Shown: positions 4,231-39,379 of the stretch, one piece after another
How the letters are laid out: the number at the start of each line of letters is the position of its first letter
Position numbering within the stretch: position 1 is the stretch's first letter
Source: Thermococcus aggregans
Lineage (GTDB): Archaea; Methanobacteriota_B; Thermococci; Thermococcales; Thermococcaceae
Assembly: GCF_024022995.1 (NCBI RefSeq)
Contig: NZ_CP099582.1
Span: 1,364,001 to 1,428,000 of the forward strand
Direction: 5' to 3'
Length of the DNA: 64,000 bases
Notes under the pieces: generated by a model
Told to the model about the DNA's origin: nothing
The model's database searches: none
Seen by the model: the letters and a program-made list of their open reading frames with translations, nothing else
Made by a program: the position numbers and the translations under genes

Positions 4231-4917
4231 ATGCAGGTTTGGACAAAGTTATTTGCCAAAAGTCCGTTTAAACCTTTAATAAAGCACGCTGAAGTTGTTT
4301 TGGAGACGGTAGAGGTCTTAGAAAAAGCCCTTAAAGCGTGGGAGATGGGCGATTGTGAAACAATGAGAAATTACGCTCGAAAAGTTGATGACCTTGAAGA
4401 TTTTGCTGACAAAATCAAGCAAGAAATAAGGGACAGTTTAAGTTCAAAGTTGTTTATGCCTGTTAATAGAGGCGACATTTTGAGATATCTGCAAATGCAA
4501 GACAAGATAGCTGACGCTGCCGAAAACACAGCTAAGTGGCTTCTTGTTAGAGACCCAAACGATATCCCCGAAGACATCAAAGAAGAGGTAAAAAGTTTGA
4601 TAATGAAGATGAGCCAAGAAAGCATTAAGGCGGCGAAACTTGTTTATGAAGCAATAGTCCAAATGGATAGGGTCATAGAGAGCGGCTTTGGAGAAAAAGA
4701 AATTGAGAGAGAATATGAGATAATCAAGGAGATAGAAAGCGTCGAACACAAAATAGACGAACTCGACACCAAGTTCATGGAGATAATCTTCAAGAACTCC
4801 AGCAGGTTGGAGTGGGGAGTTGGAATGTATCTCCTCAACATTGCAAAAACATTGAGCAACATATCAGATAAGGCAAAAGACGCGGCAGAGAGAATAAGAT
4901 TGATGATGAATAAGTGA
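4231..4917 (+). CDS. DUF47/PhoU-like Pit accessory protein
   Basis: A 228-residue, all-helical, charged protein with no membrane segment, belonging to the DUF47 family (TIGR00153) related to PhoU. Repeated helices with Glu/Asp-rich stretches (DDLEDFADKIKQEIRD; EIESVEHKIDELDTKF) match the two-half PhoU fold that binds metal clusters. It begins 6 bases downstream of the Pit stop codon with a GGGGTGA ribosome site, so the two are co-transcribed. It probably modulates phosphate uptake through the transporter; this is inferred from family and position. Confidence 0.9.
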   Translation: MQVWTKLFAKSPFKPLIKHAEVVLETVEVLEKALKAWEMGDCETMRNYARKVDDLEDFADKIKQEIRDSLSSKLFMPVNRGDILRYLQMQDKIADAAENTAKWLLVRDPNDIPEDIKEEVKSLIMKMSQESIKAAKLVYEAIVQMDRVIESGFGEKEIEREYEIIKEIESVEHKIDELDTKFMEIIFKNSSRLEWGVGMYLLNIAKTLSNISDKAKDAAERIRLMMNK

Positions 4918-13005: not shown

Positions 13006-13077
13006 TTTAACATCCCATTAAAGTTTGCCGGATAACATTATAAACTCTTACGCTGATTTTTAGTTAAGGTGAGAAAA

Positions 13078-14664
13078 ATGAGAAAAGAAAAGCTCATGCT
13101 CTTTCTGTCAGTTTTAGTTTTTGGAGGAATTCTGTGGTTTTTTAGGCCGTGGTTTCATGGGATCATCATGGGCTTTTACAGGAATCCAACTATAATATAC
13201 CTTTTCATTGCATTAGCCGGTGTGTTGATTTACAGCTCGAAGAGAAAACTCGCTGGGAATTATACAAAACGGAACGCTTGGCTGGGAGTTCTCTTTACCG
13301 TCGTAATTCTCTCGCTAATTGTTATCTCAATATTTACTGGAGCTCTTTCGAATACAGCCCTTTACAAGGAGTATCACCCTACCCAAGTCTCAAGTGAGCT
13401 TGACCTTTCAAGCAGTAAGATAAGGATTCTCCCCAAGCTAACCGCTTACCGTTATGCCGTTGACACTATAGAATACGCCAGATACACCTTAGGGTGGTCG
13501 CACTTAACTATTAGGGATGGAACACCAGTTTGGGGCTTCTTTATAGTCCCAGACGGAGCATGGAACGCAATAAGGCTCAAAGATAAAGGGGTTCTCTTTG
13601 TTGACATGAACACAACTGAAGCAAGGATGGAAAGAATTGAAAACGAGCTCCAAGTTGGACCCGGAATGCAGATTTTTGACAACCTTGAGTGGAACCTCTA
13701 CAAAAAGCACTATCTAATAGATCTCGATGTTCCAAGAGCACTTTACTACGAGGGCAAAATTTACATAGTTGTTCCCTATACCTCGTACAGCTTCCGCGTG
13801 TTTTACACCGTGCCCAAATGGGGAGGGGTTTTAATCGTTGATGAGGAAGGCAACATAGAGGATTTAACTCCTCAAGAGGCAATTAATGATGAACGCTTGA
13901 AAGACTTTCCGATTTTCCCGGAGCTCTTAACGAGGAAGATCGTTCATGCTCAAAATTACTGGAAGGAAAGCGTATTCTCGAACATAAAGAACCTCTGGCT
14001 GCACCACGAAAACCAGATAGAGCTAATTGATGTGAGCGAGCAAGGGAACAGGCAACCCTTCCTTGTCATAGCCAACGATGGGAAAGAATACTGGATGGTC
14101 GCGGTAGAGCCATACGGGAGAGCTCATGGGCTGGCGGCGATATACTTAATTAACGCTCAAAACGGCGAAATGAGCCAGGTAAAGTTTGAAACTCCGCTTA
14201 CGGGGCCAGTAAAAGCCATAGATTACGTAAAGAAAGCCTTACCAATGTTCGATTGGAGCCAATTTATGGCCGTTGAGCCAATACCGATTTTCTTAAACGG
14301 CGAGCTCTGGTGGAGGGTCGCGATAATTCCCAGAAGCGGCTCTGGTATCGCGAAGATAGCCTTTGTAAATGCAGAAACCAAAGAAGTGCAGATTTTTGAA
14401 GATGAGGATGAAGTTAGGACATTTCTTTTGTATGGCCAAGTAGGGGCCAAAGTTAAAGAGGTCAGCGGAGTTATTGAAGGAATTTATTCCTATATTAAAA
14501 ACGGAAACACCCACTGGATACTGATAATTGACAACGAAACTCTCTATTTAAGCACAGATCAACTGAGCGACGAACTCATCCTTAAAGTGCTCAGCCTAAA
14601 AGAGGGAGACAACGTGACCGTGAAAATAAGTGAAGGACGACTTGTAGAAATTGAGAAAGGATAG
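13078..14664 (+). CDS. Large membrane-anchored protein of unknown function
   Basis: A 528-residue protein with three N-terminal hydrophobic helices (about residues 5-25, 37-53 and 68-92) followed by ~430 mostly soluble residues, likely outside the cell. The soluble part has two similar regions beginning RYAVDTIEYARYTLGW and AIDYVKKALPMFDWSQ, each followed by beta-rich sequence with VPDGAW or PIFLNGELWWRVAIIP, which suggests an internal PepSY-like duplication. The C-terminal GVIEGIYSYIKNGNTHWILII part resembles an OB-like strand set. No family is recognised. ATG 13078 follows GGTGA. It heads an operon with three more membrane or secreted unknowns. Confidence 0.7.
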   Translation: MRKEKLMLFLSVLVFGGILWFFRPWFHGIIMGFYRNPTIIYLFIALAGVLIYSSKRKLAGNYTKRNAWLGVLFTVVILSLIVISIFTGALSNTALYKEYHPTQVSSELDLSSSKIRILPKLTAYRYAVDTIEYARYTLGWSHLTIRDGTPVWGFFIVPDGAWNAIRLKDKGVLFVDMNTTEARMERIENELQVGPGMQIFDNLEWNLYKKHYLIDLDVPRALYYEGKIYIVVPYTSYSFRVFYTVPKWGGVLIVDEEGNIEDLTPQEAINDERLKDFPIFPELLTRKIVHAQNYWKESVFSNIKNLWLHHENQIELIDVSEQGNRQPFLVIANDGKEYWMVAVEPYGRAHGLAAIYLINAQNGEMSQVKFETPLTGPVKAIDYVKKALPMFDWSQFMAVEPIPIFLNGELWWRVAIIPRSGSGIAKIAFVNAETKEVQIFEDEDEVRTFLLYGQVGAKVKEVSGVIEGIYSYIKNGNTHWILIIDNETLYLSTDQLSDELILKVLSLKEGDNVTVKISEGRLVEIEKG

Positions 14665-14672
14665 TGATGCCC

Positions 14673-15224
14673 ATGGAGAGGTTTCTTTTTGTTTTTCTTC
14701 TCTCTTTGGTTGTTTTAACTTCTCTATGTGTAAACCAATCCCCTTCTAAACCTTCTTCTCCCCCAAGTCTAATGTCGGAGGTTGTCTCTTTTTTAAATGA
14801 AGCCAAAGAAAACCTCAATAAATGCAACACTACCCTAAAGTCTCCTTTAAACCCTCAAAGCGACCCAGCATACCTAAACATGACCATACTAAATGAAACA
14901 ACCCTTAGACTAAAGGGAGAATTATATGAATATGCCGTCTTAGGTGTTGGCAACCTTAGCTTCGCTGGGGAGACATCATTCAGAGGCTATCAGATAACAT
15001 GGGGCACTCTAAAAAATCTCACAACCACAGGAGGGCAGAGAATCGACTTTAGAATCCAAAGGGGAAACTCAATCATTGATTCATTTACGTACTGGTATAT
15101 TCCGTTTCAGCTTGACTCATATTGTGTCTCAATCTACACTAAGGAACTTCCTGAGGGAGAGATTACTTTTGTTTTCATCCACACAGAGGGGAAAGATTTG
15201 TGGATGGTCTTGGCAAAAAAATAA
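14673..15224 (+). CDS. Secreted protein, possible lipoprotein, unknown function
   Basis: A 183-residue protein beginning MERFLFVFLLSLVVLTSLC. The hydrophobic signal ends at a Cys followed by a Ser/Pro-rich linker, suggesting a lipoprotein, although the residue before Cys is Leu rather than the usual Gly or Ala. ATG 14673 is eight bases after the upstream stop, and GTGATG serves as ribosome site; ATG 14667 and GTG 14664 are alternatives. The mature part has many NxT/S sequons. No family is recognised. It is co-transcribed with the gene at 13078. Confidence 0.6.
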   Translation: MERFLFVFLLSLVVLTSLCVNQSPSKPSSPPSLMSEVVSFLNEAKENLNKCNTTLKSPLNPQSDPAYLNMTILNETTLRLKGELYEYAVLGVGNLSFAGETSFRGYQITWGTLKNLTTTGGQRIDFRIQRGNSIIDSFTYWYIPFQLDSYCVSIYTKELPEGEITFVFIHTEGKDLWMVLAKK

Positions 15225-15259
15225 ATATCCGTAGCAACATATTAACTCGGGGGATCTAA

Positions 15260-15667
15260 ATGGAAAAAACTACCAAAGCTTTCCTCTTTCTCATCTTTGC
15301 AACTCCGCTGTGGGCCTTAATAGCTATGGCTTTGGAAGAGCTTGAAAGCATATACGGCAAAATTTCTCCTGAAATCCTCTATTTCGTCTATCCAACCCTT
15401 GCAGTTGCTTTAACAACCGCCCTATTTCTATGGAAGATGCAAATTTCTCTCTCAGAATTTGGAATATTGGCCAGCATTTCTCCTCTTGTAGCCTCAATAG
15501 CGCTTTTTGCAATGATAATAATCCAAGACGTTCGCTCTAATCCACACTACAGCGACGACCCCGGGTTCTTTATTCTCTTAGTCTTTTATGTATTCCCCGT
15601 GCTTTCTTTCCTCTTGGGAGCGGTATTCTACTATTCTATAGCGCGCTTAAAGGAGGGAGCACAATGA
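15260..15667 (+). CDS. Four-helix membrane protein of unknown function
   Basis: A 135-residue protein with hydrophobic segments at about residues 7-25, 38-57, 68-87 and 103-128. A short acidic/charged loop (QDVRSNPHYSDDPG) lies before the last helix. It starts at ATG 15260 after GGGGGATC and ends overlapping the next gene by four bases (ATGA). I see no enzymatic motif. Confidence 0.6.
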   Translation: MEKTTKAFLFLIFATPLWALIAMALEELESIYGKISPEILYFVYPTLAVALTTALFLWKMQISLSEFGILASISPLVASIALFAMIIIQDVRSNPHYSDDPGFFILLVFYVFPVLSFLLGAVFYYSIARLKEGAQ

Positions 15668-16461
15668 AGCGCCAAACCCTCGCAATGATTTTGGTATCTA
15701 CAGTGCTTTTGCTTCTCTTAATCCCCATATGCATTGCTGTAATGATATTGCTCGATATAAGCGATATTTCCAAACTTTTTCCATATAGTGTTTCCTCTTC
15801 GATAATAACTGGAATTGGGATTGTTCTCTCTGCGCTTATTGTGGGGTTTTTGGCTAAAATTGCGGCGTTGAAGATTTATAAAGAAGAAAAACCTGCAAAG
15901 GTAGCCTTTTTGGCAGTCTTTCTTATCGCCCTTTTTATCTCTGTATACACCATCAACATCCCCCGTATTGGGCCGTCGCCGCAGAAAGTTATCTACTACA
16001 CCCTCTACGAAAACGAAGTCTACGTTAATCCATATTTTGGAGAAATCTCCCTTCCATTTGAGGAAAAGGACTGGACAAAAGAATATGGGCTTAGGCCTAG
16101 GGGATACCTAAAGAGAGAAGAGGGAATAGTCAACGGAAGCAGTGGATTTGTATTCCAGAACATAACGGGCGTTTACATGGGGATTTTTGTCTATCCTAAC
16201 TCCCACGAGAGTCCCAAATGTGAGAACGCCCTCCGAGACTTGGAGGAGAAACTCAAAAATAAAGGGTGGCAAAGAACGGAAGTCCCTCCTGAGGCTCTAG
16301 AAAAGAGAAATTTCATCGGGAGGCTTATTAATGCCACAATGCTTCAGCAGGGCAACAAAGCCGTATACTTAGAATGCTCGGATGTAATGGCCTATGGAAG
16401 GTTGATAATCCTCTATGGAAAAAAAGAAGAAGTTGCTGAGTTGGCTTCAATTTTGAGCTAG
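15664..16461 (+). CDS. Membrane-anchored protein of unknown function
   Basis: A 265-residue protein overlapping the previous gene by the four bases ATGA. Three hydrophobic helices occupy the first ~100 residues; the remaining ~165 residues appear extracytoplasmic, with two Cys residues (PKCENALRD and LECSDVM) that could pair. It ends one base from the converging LigB-like gene. The shared layout (N-terminal helices, external beta-rich tail) with the gene at 13078 suggests a common cell-surface role, but the function is unknown. Confidence 0.6.
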   Translation: MKRQTLAMILVSTVLLLLLIPICIAVMILLDISDISKLFPYSVSSSIITGIGIVLSALIVGFLAKIAALKIYKEEKPAKVAFLAVFLIALFISVYTINIPRIGPSPQKVIYYTLYENEVYVNPYFGEISLPFEEKDWTKEYGLRPRGYLKREEGIVNGSSGFVFQNITGVYMGIFVYPNSHESPKCENALRDLEEKLKNKGWQRTEVPPEALEKRNFIGRLINATMLQQGNKAVYLECSDVMAYGRLIILYGKKEEVAELASILS

Positions 16462-33284: not shown

Positions 33285-33766
33285 TCAGCACTTGGCGTGG
33301 AGCGCTGAATATATAACACTGAAGAGCATGGTACCAGGGACGAAGCCCTCGACCGCGAGCAGGGCCTTCCCCAGCCAATCTTCCCCCAGAACCGCGCCGA
33401 CCACGGCCGAGACGATGAGCATGGAGGGGAGCCAGAGGTCTTCGGTTGCCGCGAACGCAAGCACTACGAAGAGCACGGGGATGCCAATCGAAAGGCCCGA
33501 CGTCCTGAACTCCGGTTTTTGAATATTAAATACAAGACGAGCAGAACGAATGCAGGAACGAGGGCAAGAATGATGAACTCCAGCGAAGGGGAGTAATTGT
33601 GCCAGCAAACGTAGGGCCTCCCTTTGCCACTCCAGTTTTCGAGGTGTGTTATGCCACTGTCAATATAATACCTCTCTGGAAGGCCGTAGAGGAGCACGAG
33701 CTCCCAGGCAGTTGCAAAGGCAAGGGCAAAAAGGTGAAGAGCATTCCACGGGATTTTCACGGTCAC
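33285..33766 (-). pseudogene. Frameshifted copy of the small multi-spanning membrane protein
   Basis: The first part (from GTG 33764-33766, after GGGGGTGA) encodes FATAWELVLLYGLPERYY, RPYVCWHNYSPSLEF and LVLYLIFK; the second part is in another frame and encodes KPEFRTSGLSIGIPVL onward to KC-stop at 33285. Joined, they align along their length with the intact protein at 36661. Loss of one T in the T5 run at 33516-33520 (FKKP to FKNR) explains the break. Both halves are otherwise undamaged, so the lesion is recent or a read error. It overlaps the stop of the upstream gene region closely, as an operon member. Confidence 0.75.
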
Positions 33767-33767
33767 G

Positions 33768-34490
33768 TCACCCCCGTGAGGAAATCGCATCCGCGAGTTT
33801 TTTGATATCAGCCTCTTCCCCTCTGGCGAGGAGCAGGTAGAGGTTGCCCTCGTCCCTGAGCTTCAGCACTAGCAGGTGGTCGCTCCCCTTCCTGAACACC
33901 CAGCCCTCGAAAAGATTACCTGAGAGCTCCCTAACTGTGGTGTAGCCCGAGCGCTTAAGCTCTGAAACGTAAGCATCTATAATCTCGCCCGGAGGTTCGC
34001 TGTACTTGAGCCGAAATGCTTCGGCTATCTCTGACCCCTCAGGCGTTTCCCCGTAATTCACCTTGGCTATTATTGCCGTTTCTTCCAGTGGGTACACATA
34101 AACTGCGAGATAAACCCTTCCTGAAAGAGTTACGTTTGAGAAGGACACTCCAGGCATGATGAGATCCATCCAGTTCTCAGAGTAACCCTCGAGCGCCTTA
34201 AAGTAGCACCGCGGCCTTTCGCCTGTCCAGTTCGAGGGCTGAAAGTTAAAGAAGCCGACGAGCACGTGCCTTGGGCTTCCGGCTACAACTTCATCGAGAG
34301 TTATGCCCTTAAATCCCGCCTGGGGAGGAAAGCCTGGACCCACTACTATTGGAGGCTTAACATCGCTGACGTTTACGCTTATCCTCGAAAAGCAGAGAGT
34401 GGTGTCTCCCACGTTCGCATTCTGCACGTAGAGAAACACACTTATCCCGGAGAGGAGAATGAGGAGCGCTATGATGAGGTATTTCTTCAC
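33768..34490 (-). CDS. Signal-anchored protein of unknown function in the protease cluster
   Basis: A 240-residue protein with one N-terminal helix (YLIIALLILLSGISVFLYVQ) and an external domain with two Cys residues, several NxT/S sequons and a C-terminal ~60-residue region (SDHLLVLKLRDEGNLYLLLARGEEADIKKLADAI). GTG 34488-34490 behind GGGGTGGC is chosen over GTG 34499. The C-terminal part resembles the tail of the protein at 15664 in layout. The base composition is GC-rich like the neighbouring ABC genes. Unknown function; it is coupled to the frameshifted gene downstream. Confidence 0.6.
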   Translation of the reverse strand: MKKYLIIALLILLSGISVFLYVQNANVGDTTLCFSRISVNVSDVKPPIVVGPGFPPQAGFKGITLDEVVAGSPRHVLVGFFNFQPSNWTGERPRCYFKALEGYSENWMDLIMPGVSFSNVTLSGRVYLAVYVYPLEETAIIAKVNYGETPEGSEIAEAFRLKYSEPPGEIIDAYVSELKRSGYTTVRELSGNLFEGWVFRKGSDHLLVLKLRDEGNLYLLLARGEEADIKKLADAISSRG

Positions 34491-34749
34491 ACGAGCCACC
34501 CCAGGGTGTGTATAGTGCTGATGTTGGAATGGGGGGAAGCTATGGCCATGCGGTTAACCCACTACGGTTTGTGGTAGAAACTTTAATAAGGTTTTCGTTA
34601 AGCGTGGGTGTTTAAATGCCCAGAATTCTTGCAAGCCCTTCAAAGGAAGCACAGAAATCCCGGAGCGTTTGCGAGCGGAACGTTTTTAGAGAGTTGTTAA
34701 GGAACGAAAACTGGGGAAGTATGAAATAGAAGCGAAGTTGCATGAAATC
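34491..34749. other. Intergenic region with a small ORF and probable gene debris
   Basis: This stretch contains a plus-strand promoter-like ACTTTAATAAGG (34580-34591) directly before a 37-codon ORF, and then a second frame reading YEIEAKLHEILYRPGHGHP that could be its continuation after a frameshift. Nothing else is recognised. It separates the unknown protein from the 3' piece of the split membrane gene. Confidence 0.35.
34616..34729 (+). CDS. Small ORF (37 residues), possibly a gene remnant
   Basis: ATG 34616 lies about 25 bases after a TATA-like element and gives MPRILASPSKEAQKSRSVCE and on to TAG 34727-34729. A different frame continues with a protein-like segment (LGKYEIEAKLHEIL), so this may be the start of a frameshifted gene. 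No family recognised. Confidence 0.3.
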   Translation: MPRILASPSKEAQKSRSVCERNVFRELLRNENWGSMK

Positions 34750-34890
34750 TTATATCGCCCGGGCCATGGACATCCTTATCGCAAGGTAAACCGCTAAGAG
34801 GCTCATAAAAGAGACTAAAGCTGACAGTCTCCCCAGTTTCTTCCCCTTTTCTCCTGGAAGGAGTGCAGGAGTGAAGGACACTGACCCCCT

Positions 34891-34910
34891 CCCCGCCTTG
34901 AAGGGCGAGG
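34891..34910 (-). repeat. Right-end hairpin of the tnpB element
   Basis: Read on the minus strand, CCTCGCC CTTCAA GGCGGGG forms a 7-base stem with one G-T wobble, downstream of the tnpB stop. It matches the left-end hairpin in 17 or so of 20 positions. In TnpB systems this end encodes the omega-RNA scaffold, with the guide beginning just outside the element. Confidence 0.6.
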
Positions 34911-34917
34911 GTTCGGC

Positions 34918-36228
34918 TTAACCCCTCGCCAACGGCAGGGAAGTTTGAGGGGCTTCATTAAAGCCCAATAAAGGTGGGCTTTTTAGCCCCTCCAGGAGGG
35001 TCTTCCCCCGGTTACCCCTCCTCTGAGCATAAAGCCCGCTCAGATTCGGGGTTATGGTTCTCATAACCTTTTTTAAAATATTAAACGCTCCAACCAAGTC
35101 TGCATTAAAGATAAGCCCCGTTGCGGGACACTTAAACAAACCACGAACGAACCGAGCCCCATCGTGGGGCTTCCCGCAAACGGGGCAAACCTTAGAAGTG
35201 AAAGCCTCATTCACAACCAAAACTCGAATACCATACTCTTCGGCAACCTCAGTTAAACGTTTAATGACATAATTAAATCGCCAGACGTGAGAGAGAATAA
35301 AGTTTTGCTTCTTGCCCTTATCAGAGTTCCTCGCTATTCCCTTTGGATAGCCAACGACAATTTTGGAAACACCTAACTCATAAAGCCTTCTCACGGTTTG
35401 TCTAACTGCCGTGTTAATGTAGTGCTTGGCTTGAAGCTTAGCCTTCTCGTGCATTCTTTTGAGCTTTCTACTCGTCTTAGCTCCACTCTTGTTGAGTTTT
35501 GACTGATACTCGGCGATTTTTCTTCGCCAGTAGAAGTCAATGCTTTTAAGCGGTCTTCCATTGACCAGAAAGCTTTCTCCATTCTCAACGTAAACTGCCA
35601 TCAAGTTGTTCACTCCTAAGTCAATTCCCGCCGAGAGGCTTCCTTTTGGCGTTCTTGGAACGCTTACCCATTCCTCACCCTCAAGTTTTTCCTCGACAGT
35701 AAGGCTAACGTGAGCATACCATTTCCGCTTAACGGGGTCGTAGGTTATCTCTAACCGCCCCTGCTTGCCCTTCAGGTGAATTCTGCCCTTAAACTGGACT
35801 TCGAGGCGTTTAAACTTCCCAAGGCCTTTGAAGATTAGTTTGTTCCCTTCAACCTTGTACTGGTCATTTCTCAGGACGATTAAGGGTTTCCTCCTCCCGT
35901 CTTCTTTGAGGTAGAGTGGAGGTTTTGGTTTGAGCCAAGAGGGGAGTTCTCCATTCCTCTTCTTCCTCAGGAGTGAGAAAAAGCTTCTCCAAGCTTCAGC
36001 GTTTTTTCTCGCTATCTGCTGAACCGTGGCAGAACCGATTTCCCGTTTAAACTCCTCATAAACGGTTTTCTCGGTTTTGTTAAAGTCCACGATTTGCTCT
36101 TGGAAGTATTGTCGTCTCCTCAAGTAGTTTACTCGGTTCCAGGCTTTGGCTCCTGCATCGGCTAACTGGTGGAGGATTTTTGCTTGTTCTTTTGAGGGCT
36201 GGAGTTTTACTGTTACTGAGCGCTTCAT
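34918..36228 (-). CDS. tnpB: TnpB RNA-guided nuclease-type transposon protein
   Basis: A 436-residue OrfB/TnpB protein. The N-terminus (KRSVTVKLQPSKEQAKILHQ) is the usual OrfB HTH region. RuvC motifs are intact: Asp in AGIDLGVNN, Glu in VVNEAFTSK and Asp in FNADLVGAFNIL. The zinc site has CPVC but the second pair is CPAT, with one Cys missing, which I recall as common in this archaeal subgroup. TnpB proteins cut DNA guided by an omega-RNA from the element's own 3' end. The protein looks complete and so may be active. It lies inside a membrane protein gene. Confidence 0.93.
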   Translation of the reverse strand: MKRSVTVKLQPSKEQAKILHQLADAGAKAWNRVNYLRRRQYFQEQIVDFNKTEKTVYEEFKREIGSATVQQIARKNAEAWRSFFSLLRKKRNGELPSWLKPKPPLYLKEDGRRKPLIVLRNDQYKVEGNKLIFKGLGKFKRLEVQFKGRIHLKGKQGRLEITYDPVKRKWYAHVSLTVEEKLEGEEWVSVPRTPKGSLSAGIDLGVNNLMAVYVENGESFLVNGRPLKSIDFYWRRKIAEYQSKLNKSGAKTSRKLKRMHEKAKLQAKHYINTAVRQTVRRLYELGVSKIVVGYPKGIARNSDKGKKQNFILSHVWRFNYVIKRLTEVAEEYGIRVLVVNEAFTSKVCPVCGKPHDGARFVRGLFKCPATGLIFNADLVGAFNILKKVMRTITPNLSGLYAQRRGNRGKTLLEGLKSPPLLGFNEAPQTSLPLARG

Positions 36229-36307
36229 TTCAAGGTATGGTATGGATTTTAGGCTTTAAAATAGTTTTGCTTTCCTGTTTAGAGGCCGGTTGGGTGGTTT
36301 ATTGCAT

Positions 36308-36327
36308 CCCCGCCCTAAAGGGCGAGG
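36308..36327 (-). repeat. Left-end hairpin of the tnpB element
   Basis: Minus-strand CCTCGCCC TTTA GGGCGGGG forms an 8-base stem with one G-T wobble, upstream of the tnpB start and next to the junction with the split host gene. Confidence 0.6.
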
Positions 36328-36660
36328 CTTGAAAAAGAAAAATGTAAAATAGCGAGTGGGGAAATTTTCAAAAGGGCGACACCGGCAAACACGGTCACAC
36401 AGGACGATGAAAAAATTACGGCTTCAGCCTTCAGGTTTCTCCAGAGGGAAACAGCGGTGACAACCACAAAGGGCAGTGCTACTGCCAAGAAGAAAACTGG
36501 CGATGGATCAAAGACGAAGTTACACGCGGGAGGGCTTCTCGACCAGCAGGAAGCCCCAACGTAGTATTCCGAAGGGAGTAAAATCATGAGCAGGAACTCA
36601 CATGTTGGAAAAAGGAAAAGATAAAGGAGAGAGCGGAGCTTCATCCTTCATCACCACCCA

Positions 36661-37152
36661 TTAACACGACACGGCTGTGAGTTCGGCCGCTATCATCATA
36701 CTTACTATGAGGCCGGGCAGAAAGCCCGCAATACTGAGCAGCACTTTTTCCCACTTGTCTTTTCCGGCTACCCCACTAACCGCCAAAGAGACAACGAGCA
36801 GAACCAGTAAAACACCGGGCCCTTTAGTTTTAAAACACCCAATAATCACCGACAGAATAGGCAAGCTTATTGAGACAGCCGATTTCTTTAGGGCGGGCTT
36901 CCTAAACCAGAGGTATAGGATGAGCAGGACAAGTGCAGGGAGTAAAACGAGAAGAACAAACTCCGGCGAGGGAGAGTATTTGCTCCAAGAAACACAGGGC
37001 CTTCCCGCCCCACCTGTCCAGTTCTCAAAAAAGATTGTACATCTCTTAACATAATACCTACCGATGAACCGACTATTGTAAGCGAGTATAAGCTCCCAGG
37101 CCGTTGCAAAAATAATGGAAAGAACATAGAACATGAATTCCCTACGGCTCAT
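36661..37152 (-). CDS. Small multi-spanning membrane protein of the protease cluster (intact copy)
   Basis: A 163-residue protein with about five hydrophobic segments and one external loop holding Cys residues (YYVKRCTIFFENWTGGAGRP, then CVSWSKYSPSPEF). ATG 37152 follows GGAGGTGA, which overlaps the protease stop codon, so translation is coupled to the protease. Two relatives follow in the same cluster, both broken. No known family comes to mind. Possible roles include membrane partner, processing factor or self-protection for the secreted protease; none is shown by sequence. Confidence 0.7.
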   Translation of the reverse strand: MSRREFMFYVLSIIFATAWELILAYNSRFIGRYYVKRCTIFFENWTGGAGRPCVSWSKYSPSPEFVLLVLLPALVLLILYLWFRKPALKKSAVSISLPILSVIIGCFKTKGPGVLLVLLVVSLAVSGVAGKDKWEKVLLSIAGFLPGLIVSMMIAAELTAVSC

Positions 37153-37156
37153 TGGG

Positions 37157-38485
37157 TCACCTCCTCTTGGGAATTACCTTCACAAGGTGAGTATCTGAGC
37201 CCCAGTTGCCCCACGCGAGATAATGCTCGTTCATGTCCCAGCCGCTGTGAATGACTAGGTAATCCACTGTGTTAGAATTTCCCACATACCCAACTACAAC
37301 AACGCTATGGTTCCCGTAGGGTCCCTGCCCGTATACTGAGCTTCCACCGTTATAAAGCTGGAGTAAGATAGGGTGGTTGCTGTCAACTTCATTAATAACA
37401 TCGCTTGCATGTATATAGCCAAACCAAGAACATAATCCCAAAGTGCAAGTAGGCTGTGCATCGTAACTGTGGACGAGAGACCACGAAACAATTCCTTCGT
37501 TCTTCAGTTTTTGATATTCGTCTGCAAAGGCTTCAATGCCATCACATGCGTCAGGTCCCCAGCTCCCACACCAATAGGTCTGTCCGGGATCATTCTCCTT
37601 ATCAAACGTTCCCATAGTGTGGTGAAGGATGTCAACCAGGGACGTCATGTACTCCTTGTATTCCTGTGTGTAATAACCGTTTTCATAGATTTCTGGATGC
37701 TCATAATAGGCTATAATTTGAGCGGCGGCAATTGGGGTGCACCCGTCCCATGCATCCCACGGGTCTCCCTTCGGTCCAACGTTCTTAGGATAACTCATTG
37801 ACAAATTCTTTGGGTCCCCAAAATACGGGTCCATTTCTGTCCATATTGGAACGTTGGGTATAATCTTGGTGTATATGTCATCTGATAGAATTCCGACCAT
37901 AGGTTCACTCGCTGAGGAAGTCTCAAGGGCTCTCCAGGCATTTACCACACGTTTTGGAGAGAATGAGAGTTTAACGGTTTTTGGAACGGGAACCTGTCTG
38001 CCGTGAATATCCACAGCTTTTCCGTTTCCCAGTTCTATGCTGTAGCTCAGCCCGCCGTAATAAAGCAACCTGTTCTGTTTTGCTGTGAAGCCTTTGATTC
38101 TTGCCGCTCCAATTCTTCCCAGCCTTTTACTTGGGGCCTCACCTTTCCCAAACTCAAGAATTGGAGTCATGTACTTCTGAGCCGCCACGAGGATGAACCC
38201 CTCGGGCTTTCCATTTACAAGCACGGTGAACTCATAAGCGCTTTTGGTTCCGTTGGGGAAGTAGTACACCACGGGCTGGGAAAGCTTTGCATTCTCCCAG
38301 TCCTCGAATCCAGGGATGTTTGATGACGCCCAAAGGAGGTGCTGCTTGGCAACAAACCTGGCCTCAGCTGACGTCACAGAACCGTCGAAGTTCTTTGGGG
38401 GAACCAAACTTAGGGCCCCCGGGAAACTACTCAATACTAAGGTTACGAAAACCATCCCAACCAGACAATATTTCCAGCCCTTCAA
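37157..38485 (-). CDS. Secreted cysteine protease, C39/C10 (papain-like) type
   Basis: A 442-residue secreted protein. A signal peptide covers ~residues 1-27, a ~190-residue N-terminal region (with a FTAKQNRLLYYGG-like PepSY/propeptide feel) follows, and then a papain-like domain: nucleophile Cys in WDGCTPIAAAQIIAYYEHPE and His in YGNHSVVVVGYV, with a final AsN/Asp-type strand HSGWDMNEHYLAWGNWG. The DGCTPIAAAQ block resembles streptopain (C10) and C39-like peptidases. TTG 38483-38485 after GGTGATTC is favoured; GTG 38494 overlaps that site. A palindrome touches its TATA box. It heads a cluster of membrane protein genes. Confidence 0.82.
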   Translation of the reverse strand: MKGWKYCLVGMVFVTLVLSSFPGALSLVPPKNFDGSVTSAEARFVAKQHLLWASSNIPGFEDWENAKLSQPVVYYFPNGTKSAYEFTVLVNGKPEGFILVAAQKYMTPILEFGKGEAPSKRLGRIGAARIKGFTAKQNRLLYYGGLSYSIELGNGKAVDIHGRQVPVPKTVKLSFSPKRVVNAWRALETSSASEPMVGILSDDIYTKIIPNVPIWTEMDPYFGDPKNLSMSYPKNVGPKGDPWDAWDGCTPIAAAQIIAYYEHPEIYENGYYTQEYKEYMTSLVDILHHTMGTFDKENDPGQTYWCGSWGPDACDGIEAFADEYQKLKNEGIVSWSLVHSYDAQPTCTLGLCSWFGYIHASDVINEVDSNHPILLQLYNGGSSVYGQGPYGNHSVVVVGYVGNSNTVDYLVIHSGWDMNEHYLAWGNWGSDTHLVKVIPKRR

Positions 38486-38505
38486 AGGAATCACCAGTTG
38501 AAATA

Positions 38506-38629: not shown

Positions 38630-39379
38630 TCAAAACTCCGTCCTCAACTTCCAGCCGTCTATACTGAAGCCACCCATTTTATCAAGGACGTGGTTTATTA
38701 ACGCCTCGACGTTTTCGGTTCTGACCTCTTGCATGGCCCCGAGGAAAAGTTCGACAAACCTCTCATCCGGGAAGTCCGGGAAGAGGTATGCTTTTCTAAA
38801 GGCCCCCTCGGTAAAGAGCCGGTAAACCTTGCTAGCCGGCGGTATTTCAACCCCCAAGAATCTGGCGTAGTATTCCAGAGCCATTTTTAGGGCCAGATGA
38901 TAGAGGTAAGCGTAGCTTGGGTTTCCTCTGTTTTCGGCGTCCTTCAAACTATCGAGGACGTCCCAGAGGAAGTACTTGGCCAGCTCGATTCTCGTTTCGT
39001 CCGGCTTTGGAAACGGCTTTCCCATGTACTCCTTAGCCTCTACCCTAAGAACCTCAATTATTCCCGTTTTGTCAAAGAGGGTCTTTCCTGTGAGAATTAT
39101 CCTAGCCGTGCTCCTGCTGTTCTGGGCGAGCTCCCCCTCGAAGTACTCCCTAACCGCCCGGACTGGGTTCGCAAAGTATTCAATCAAAACGCCGTCCACA
39201 ATGACGTTCCCTCTTTCTCTCCAGCCAACATCGTCGGAGAGGATTATGTAGACGTCCACGTCCGAGCGAGAAGTTTGCAGGCCGAGGGCATAGCTTCCAG
39301 TCAGCAGGGCAGCTTCGACGAACTCTTGCTCTTTCCAAGGTCTGAGGAACTTCTCAAGCGCCTGCTTCCAGTCTCCCAT
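38630..39379 (-). CDS. Nucleotidyltransferase-domain protein
   Basis: A 249-residue protein. Residues ~20-100 form a Pol-beta-type nucleotidyltransferase domain: LLTGSYALGLQTSRSDVDVYI supplies GS and the DxD metal pair, with a third acidic residue in GVLIEYF. The C-terminal ~140 residues are helical, as in MNT/HEPN-like or aminoglycoside nucleotidyltransferase proteins. ATG 39379 follows GAGGTGGC. Nine bases separate it from the NMN adenylyltransferase gene. The acceptor is unknown; it could be a resistance-type enzyme or an antitoxin-like AMP transferase without partner. Confidence 0.8.
   Translation of the reverse strand: MGDWKQALEKFLRPWKEQEFVEAALLTGSYALGLQTSRSDVDVYIILSDDVGWRERGNVIVDGVLIEYFANPVRAVREYFEGELAQNSRSTARIILTGKTLFDKTGIIEVLRVEAKEYMGKPFPKPDETRIELAKYFLWDVLDSLKDAENRGNPSYAYLYHLALKMALEYYARFLGVEIPPASKVYRLFTEGAFRKAYLFPDFPDERFVELFLGAMQEVRTENVEALINHVLDKMGGFSIDGWKLRTEF

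Follow-up and report, generated by a model that had tools for sequence, protein, structure and literature searches.

Closest described systems and the locus of Thermococcus aggregans

Polymorphic toxin systems combine a constant 5′ body with a toxin cassette that is replaced as one with its immunity gene, and the strings of immunity genes at their 3′ side are leftovers of earlier exchanges; papain-like toxins, Tox-PLC39 included, are in their toxin list (Zhang et al. 2012, PMC3482391). Within Thermococcales, the VARTIG system, likened to polymorphic toxins, has a hypervariable C-terminus with variable downstream genes and is centred on a large immunoglobulin-domain protein, and the paper mentions no papain-like protease (PMC8416519). 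As of that 2021 paper, archaeal polymorphic toxins were predicted, not experimentally characterised. In the SpeB/Spi and Bfp/Bfi pairs (PMC2873492) a secreted pro-protease is linked to a gene whose supposed role is protection of the producing cell, Spi being a propeptide analogue and Bfi staphostatin-like. The locus considered here lies in a 64,000-nucleotide stretch (the window) of Thermococcus aggregans (contig NZ_CP099582.1, positions 1,364,001 to 1,428,000), from a Thermococcaceae genome of 1.889 Mb, and consists of a gene for a secreted papain-like pro-protease followed by an array of genes for membrane proteins. It is probably an allele of a polymorphic toxin–immunity system of Thermococcales, with the protease as extracellular toxin and the membrane partners as surface immunity; these roles are assigned because the locus follows the logic described by Zhang et al.

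The likeness to polymorphic toxin systems extends to the N-terminal export region, where a signal core is found, to the constant N-terminal body whose C-terminal domain is replaced by recombination, to the immunity-type gene that lies directly 3′ and co-varies with this domain, and to displaced C-terminal pieces with downstream strings of partner genes. The differences are that the constant part here is a signal peptide plus a zymogen prodomain, the Pfam scan of the protease having found no specialised delivery domain (RHS, filamentous, PAAR or WXG), that the swapped domain is always a papain-like protease, and that the putative immunity proteins sit in the membrane or are anchored to it and expose parts to the outside. 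The SpeB/Spi and Bfp/Bfi pairs share the secreted pro-protease, the same predicted fold and the linked gene, but the proteins encoded downstream of the protease here (TM163 and U243, see below) resemble neither the prodomain nor any Pfam family, and the main feature of the Thermococcales system is allele swapping. Unlike VARTIG, no large multi-immunoglobulin protein lies upstream, and no immunoglobulin domain is among the Pfam hits. The esaG/tsaI arrays of the staphylococcal type VII secretion system (T7SS) likewise line up immunity paralogues that differ from one another and correspond to polymorphic toxins, but they are bacterial and belong to T7SS-delivered nuclease and membrane-depolarising toxins (PMC9484751). 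The system does not appear categorically new, and looks like an undescribed archaeal variant of polymorphic toxins. The preliminary description of this DNA, made from its letters, had known of no system of such composition; literature searches likewise found no description of the protease family, which may already be listed in the archaeal polymorphic toxin survey by Makarova et al. (2019), but the statement was too strong given the polymorphic-toxin logic and the SpeB/streptopain-like enzyme.

Linkage of the protease to its downstream partner

The protease gene (37157..38494, minus strand) encodes 445 amino acids, with GTG at 38494 or TTG at 38485 as candidate starts, the latter preceded by GGTGA. 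Its product is composed of a signal peptide with a hydrophobic core, a SpeB-like prodomain and a catalytic domain; the open reading frame (ORF), Pfam matches to C10 and C39_2, the structure model and invariant residues identify it as a secreted SpeB-type pro-protease, the predicted toxin. Directly downstream, the intact gene at 36661..37152 on the same strand encodes TM163, a 163-residue membrane protein with five spans by hydropathy and the predicted cognate immunity protein. The ribosome-binding site of TM163, AGGAGGTGA (37157..37165, minus strand), is made of the final two codons and the stop codon of the protease, and the partner's ribosome site also overlaps the protease end in most loci of types A and B, defined below. 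The preliminary description had already recognised the secreted C39/C10-like protease, the overlapping ribosome site and the location of the named genes on one strand, which is the minus strand.

A census of 94 Thermococcaceae genomes, from which 60 loci were extracted for comparison, supports its further proposal that protease and membrane proteins form a linked system. A small membrane or membrane-anchored protein is encoded directly downstream of all full-length proteases (29/29), and in 27 cases it comes from one of five sets (TM, U243, D1, C21 or C23/C35). In the locus L128 the downstream D1 gene runs off the contig, and in L138/L150 a 105-residue three-span protein overlaps the protease stop. 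Linked proteases and partners occur at many chromosomal sites in four genera. The suggested search for the TM163 family across genomes showed that TM and protease co-occur well beyond expectation (both in 26 genomes, TM alone in 13, protease alone in 8, neither in 47; Fisher p = 2.7e-7).

Mosaic exchange

The protease gene has a mosaic structure. Its constant module (signal peptide and prodomain core, residues 1–130; 38105..38494, minus strand) was delimited by segment identity, fourfold degenerate sites, domain trees and blocks of identical DNA, and its variable module (catalytic domain, residues 216–445; 37157..37849, minus strand), which tracks the partner gene, by segment identity, trees and Mantel tests. 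Proteases with a TM partner (type A) and with a U243 partner (type B) are 80% identical in the prodomain (residues 36–130), against 81% within a type, whereas residues 331–445 show 35% identity between the types and 76–78% within them; taken over these types and type E (below), catalytic-domain identity goes down to 24–50% while signal and prodomain are common. Constraint alone is insufficient to explain the likeness of the prodomains, because the fourfold synonymous sites of A and B, too, agree better in the prodomain (41%) than in the catalytic domain (22–31%). It was further ruled out by the genome G071, which holds two loci at different sites that share a block of about 480 identical nucleotides; the block begins in the promoter region and ends near codon 110, the DNA before it being unrelated and the DNA after it diverged. 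The catalytic-domain tree recovers type A and type B as clades (support 100/100 and 100/99.9), and both clades are rejected by the prodomain data (approximately unbiased test, p-AU 0.019 and 0.013).

The same pattern is found within types, and type E is the more extreme case. Among the ten genes of type E the prodomain is 91–100% identical, with mean identities of 50% for the catalytic domain and 39% for the partner. Here the catalytic domain follows the partner (Mantel r = 0.62, p = 0.0002) and the prodomain does not follow the catalytic domain (r = 0.16, p = 0.18); the prodomain also correlates with the partner (r = 0.50, p = 0.019), which is putatively attributed to three genes with diverged prodomains in the set. 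In type A the TM partner is tracked by the C-terminal 115 residues (r = 0.53, p = 0.005, n = 10, gene fragments included) but not by the prodomain (r = −0.52, n = 6).

Arrays, orphan partners and chromosomal site

Arrays reach up to five partner genes, and some preserve pieces of displaced proteases. In the genome G047 the order is a type-B protease, U243, residues 283–445 of a type-A protease, TM, type-A residues 426–445 and a further TM gene. In G016 a broken chimeric protease, type A at its front and B-like at its back, occurs together with U243, and short protease tips stand ahead of TM genes in five genomes (G015, G057, G059, G017 and G060).

In most Thermococcus genomes the array is located between two genes that are taken here, from a reading of their sequences, to be surE and ftsY. 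In the 13 genomes with TM and no detected protease, the TM gene mostly still lies in the surE–ftsY gap. The preliminary description had held that membrane proteins occurring mostly without the protease would mark the linkage as chance. Indeed, of 45 intact TM genes that reach a length of 140 codons only 10 directly follow a protease ORF, but this test is misleading and the remainder do not refute the linkage, because they are placed as orphan immunity genes would be, in the same arrays or in the surE–ftsY gap. The ratio of nonsynonymous to synonymous substitution rates (dN/dS) is mostly 0.14–0.5 in TM pairs that include orphans, and thus mostly indicates purifying selection. The window's genome has a single protease of the family, and its cassette lies outside the surE–ftsY gap; as the TM family was also not found in the other 12 genomes of its genus that the census covered, the cassette was likely acquired laterally.

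The protease

The window protease stays below the Pfam gathering cut-offs for C10 (22.4 against 26 bits) and C39_2 (22 against 24 bits). Among 16 members of the family, C39_2 matches 15 (best E 9.4e-10) and C10 matches three below E 0.01; six members also have a match to I69, the Spi-type model. Sequence searches of the PDB gave weak papain-family matches only. The AlphaFold2 model is confident (predicted template modelling score, pTM, 0.82), and its four best Foldseek matches in the PDB are all SpeB, as zymogen or in a complex (E 8e-7 to 5e-6, the zymogen 1pvj at 8e-7), followed by staphopain. The modelled SpeB-type pro- and papain-like fold agrees with membership of C10; the protease is named papain-like rather than filed there because its C10 score is sub-threshold and C39_2 is broader among the members. 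C252, H396 and H416 are invariant among the relatives. In the alignment with papain-family enzymes, H396 falls on their histidine and H416 on the position where they have the catalytic asparagine, which suggests an unusual Cys-His-His active site. Neither the protease nor the partner proteins matched anti-phage defence families.

In the locus L085, a separate piece matching the prodomain region (4511–4876) stands just before an intact protease; it may be either a remnant or an inhibitor of the Spi kind. Distant protease relatives (L151–L157) occur in haloarchaea (Halopiger, Halorubrum, Halapricum, Haloferax) and in metagenome-assembled genomes of Dehalococcoidales; a same-strand gene for a lipoprotein-like, anchored or multi-span protein follows the relative in L151, L155 and L156, and L155 additionally holds a C-terminal protease piece.

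The partner proteins

By profile comparison, U243, D1, C23, C21 and C35 form one superfamily (U243 with D1, E 2.6e-12), from which TM stands apart. TM163 has a loop of about 38 residues between its first two spans and basic loops on the opposite side, so that from hydropathy and charge the long loop probably faces outside. U243, the 243-residue protein encoded at 33768..34499 (minus strand), has a single N-terminal anchor (transmembrane helix 2–30) and is otherwise extracytoplasmic. Its family is present in 16 of the 94 genomes and is found directly after type-B proteases, and its dN/dS against relatives is 0.21–0.27. The preliminary description had regarded it as a signal-anchored unknown, but this distribution marks it as a cognate partner of type-B proteases rather than a bystander; in the window it is an orphan partner, predicted to give immunity to a non-self protease.

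The Pfam scan matched TM163 and U243 to no family, staphostatin and Spi inhibitors included. A Spi-like partner, that is, an inhibitor homologous to the prodomain, was looked for by hhalign comparison of the partners with the protease prodomain, which gave no likeness (E about 0.3 or worse).

Proposed mechanism and alternative explanations

The proposed model is as follows. The zymogen would be exported through its Sec signal and held inactive by the SpeB-like prodomain until it is outside, where the freed papain-like catalytic domain would attack surface proteins of neighbouring cells of related strains. At the producer surface, the membrane protein of the translationally coupled downstream gene, TM163 in this allele and in others an ectodomain protein with an anchor, would block the matching catalytic domain. 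Recombination in the prodomain region would swap catalytic domain and immunity gene jointly; the cassettes displaced in this way would accumulate downstream as rows of orphan immunity genes, which may protect against the proteases of other strains. A secreted protease acting outside fits partners with large outward parts. The preliminary description had left escort, immunity and substrate open as roles of the membrane proteins; the comparative evidence favours immunity over escort or substrate, because catalytic domains are partner-specific while the prodomain is constant, C-terminal protease pieces are displaced and partners are kept by purifying selection where the protease is absent. Escort, substrate and simple self-protection fail to account for orphan partners and allele swapping together.

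Several points weigh against the toxin–immunity reading. Toxicity, a surface target and inhibition by the partner are steps that we infer, and no cell-entry or adhesion domain was found. The short protease tips, about 25 residues long, could be a ribosome site carried along in TM gene duplication; for three of the most closely related TM pairs dN/dS reaches 0.7–0.9; and the type-A pair test comprises just 10 loci. The U243 model is poor (predicted local distance difference test, pLDDT, 62), and its weak fold matches, with E above 0.003 and template modelling scores below 0.5, are EagT6, whose family are chaperones, and DcrB.

The strongest competitor, although unlikely, is an ordinary secreted protease with a self-protecting inhibitor, of the SpeB–Spi, staphopain–staphostatin or Bfp–Bfi type, that serves feeding or surface remodelling with no contest between strains. 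The SpeB zymogen is indeed the closest fold, and the C10 proteases of Bacteroides fragilis adjoin genes for envelope-located inhibitor-like proteins, some of them on mobile DNA (PMC2873492). However, such a pair leaves unexplained the constant prodomain with a swapped catalytic domain and partner, as well as arrays of up to five partners, displaced protease pieces and partner genes free of any protease. Much less probable is an escort function, the partner being a foldase, membrane docking factor or secretion chaperone for its own catalytic domain. One-to-one linkage, translational coupling and co-variation would equally result from it, and the Eag effector chaperones are among the weak matches of U243, but an escort without a client should decay, whereas orphan partners are still present in 13 genomes that lack a detectable protease, and they mostly evolve under purifying selection. 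It is still less probable that the membrane protein serves as substrate or receptor, the two forming a module for signalling or peptide maturation: C39-type peptidases do process secreted peptides, and duplicated genes in their vicinity were interpreted as bacteriocin or quorum systems (PMC6393860), but the enzyme is a free secreted zymogen without transporter fusion, and the partners are multi-span or anchored proteins from unrelated families, not small precursors. A chance neighbourhood in a region rich in mobile DNA, to which the tnpB insertion and gene decay in the window might point, is most improbable and was ruled out by the 29/29 adjacency and the Fisher test, as well as by the many sites and four genera in which the linkage recurs.

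Further features of the window

Downstream of TM163, all on the minus strand, the array continues with further TM-family genes. A second one, of the TM-B subfamily, is cut by tnpB: its N-terminal part (36315..36644) is homologous as far as about 36363 (36644–36363 is 59% identical to residues 10–104 of an orphan TM protein in L113), and its probable C-terminal remnant (~34753..34842) matches residues 135–161 of a TM protein of L101 (E 0.011). The tnpB gene (34918..36228; NCBIfam guided_TnpB, 5.6e-55), which encodes an IS200/IS605-family RNA-guided nuclease, is an insertion and lies outside the protease–partner system; a relative of it (cluster C24) also adjoins the array of L100 (G016:C45), at a contig end. 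A degenerate remnant of a further TM-family gene is found at 34560..34727 (E 3e-4), and a fourth TM-family gene (33285..33790) is frameshifted, its two overlapping frames each matching the family. The split gene, the frameshifted relative and the intact copy had been noted before, as three related membrane genes; they are real, but the array is larger, since it includes this further remnant.

Directly upstream of the protease (38630–39379, minus strand) lies a gene for a protein with a nucleotidyltransferase domain; it matches the models for MntA-type antitoxin and HalB, but weakly. Elsewhere in the window, on the plus strand, an intact orphan partner-type gene of the C21/C35/C23 group (15664..16461; hidden Markov model E 9e-27) has no adjoining protease. 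It ends a head-to-tail set (13069–16461) that begins with genes for a 531-residue membrane protein, a 186-residue lipoprotein-like protein and a 135-residue multi-span protein; the proteins of this set have weak sub-threshold Pfam matches, none of them clear, and it is possibly a second conflict locus.

Implications

More tentatively than its assignment to the polymorphic toxins, the system may represent a distinct class of them, diffusible and surface-acting, that serves kin discrimination in Thermococcales and has relatives in haloarchaea and Dehalococcoidales; in such a class the constant module would be a zymogen prodomain that tolerates widely diverged proteases, and immunity would be located in the membrane. 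The system is compact and often placed at a defined chromosomal hotspot, and in one Thermococcales genome the orphan partner genes (TM, U243, TM) are intact, and another site is occupied by a protease of a different type, type E, with its partner. If true, it would pose a structural puzzle, as one near-invariant prodomain would have to serve protease domains that share just 36–50% identity.

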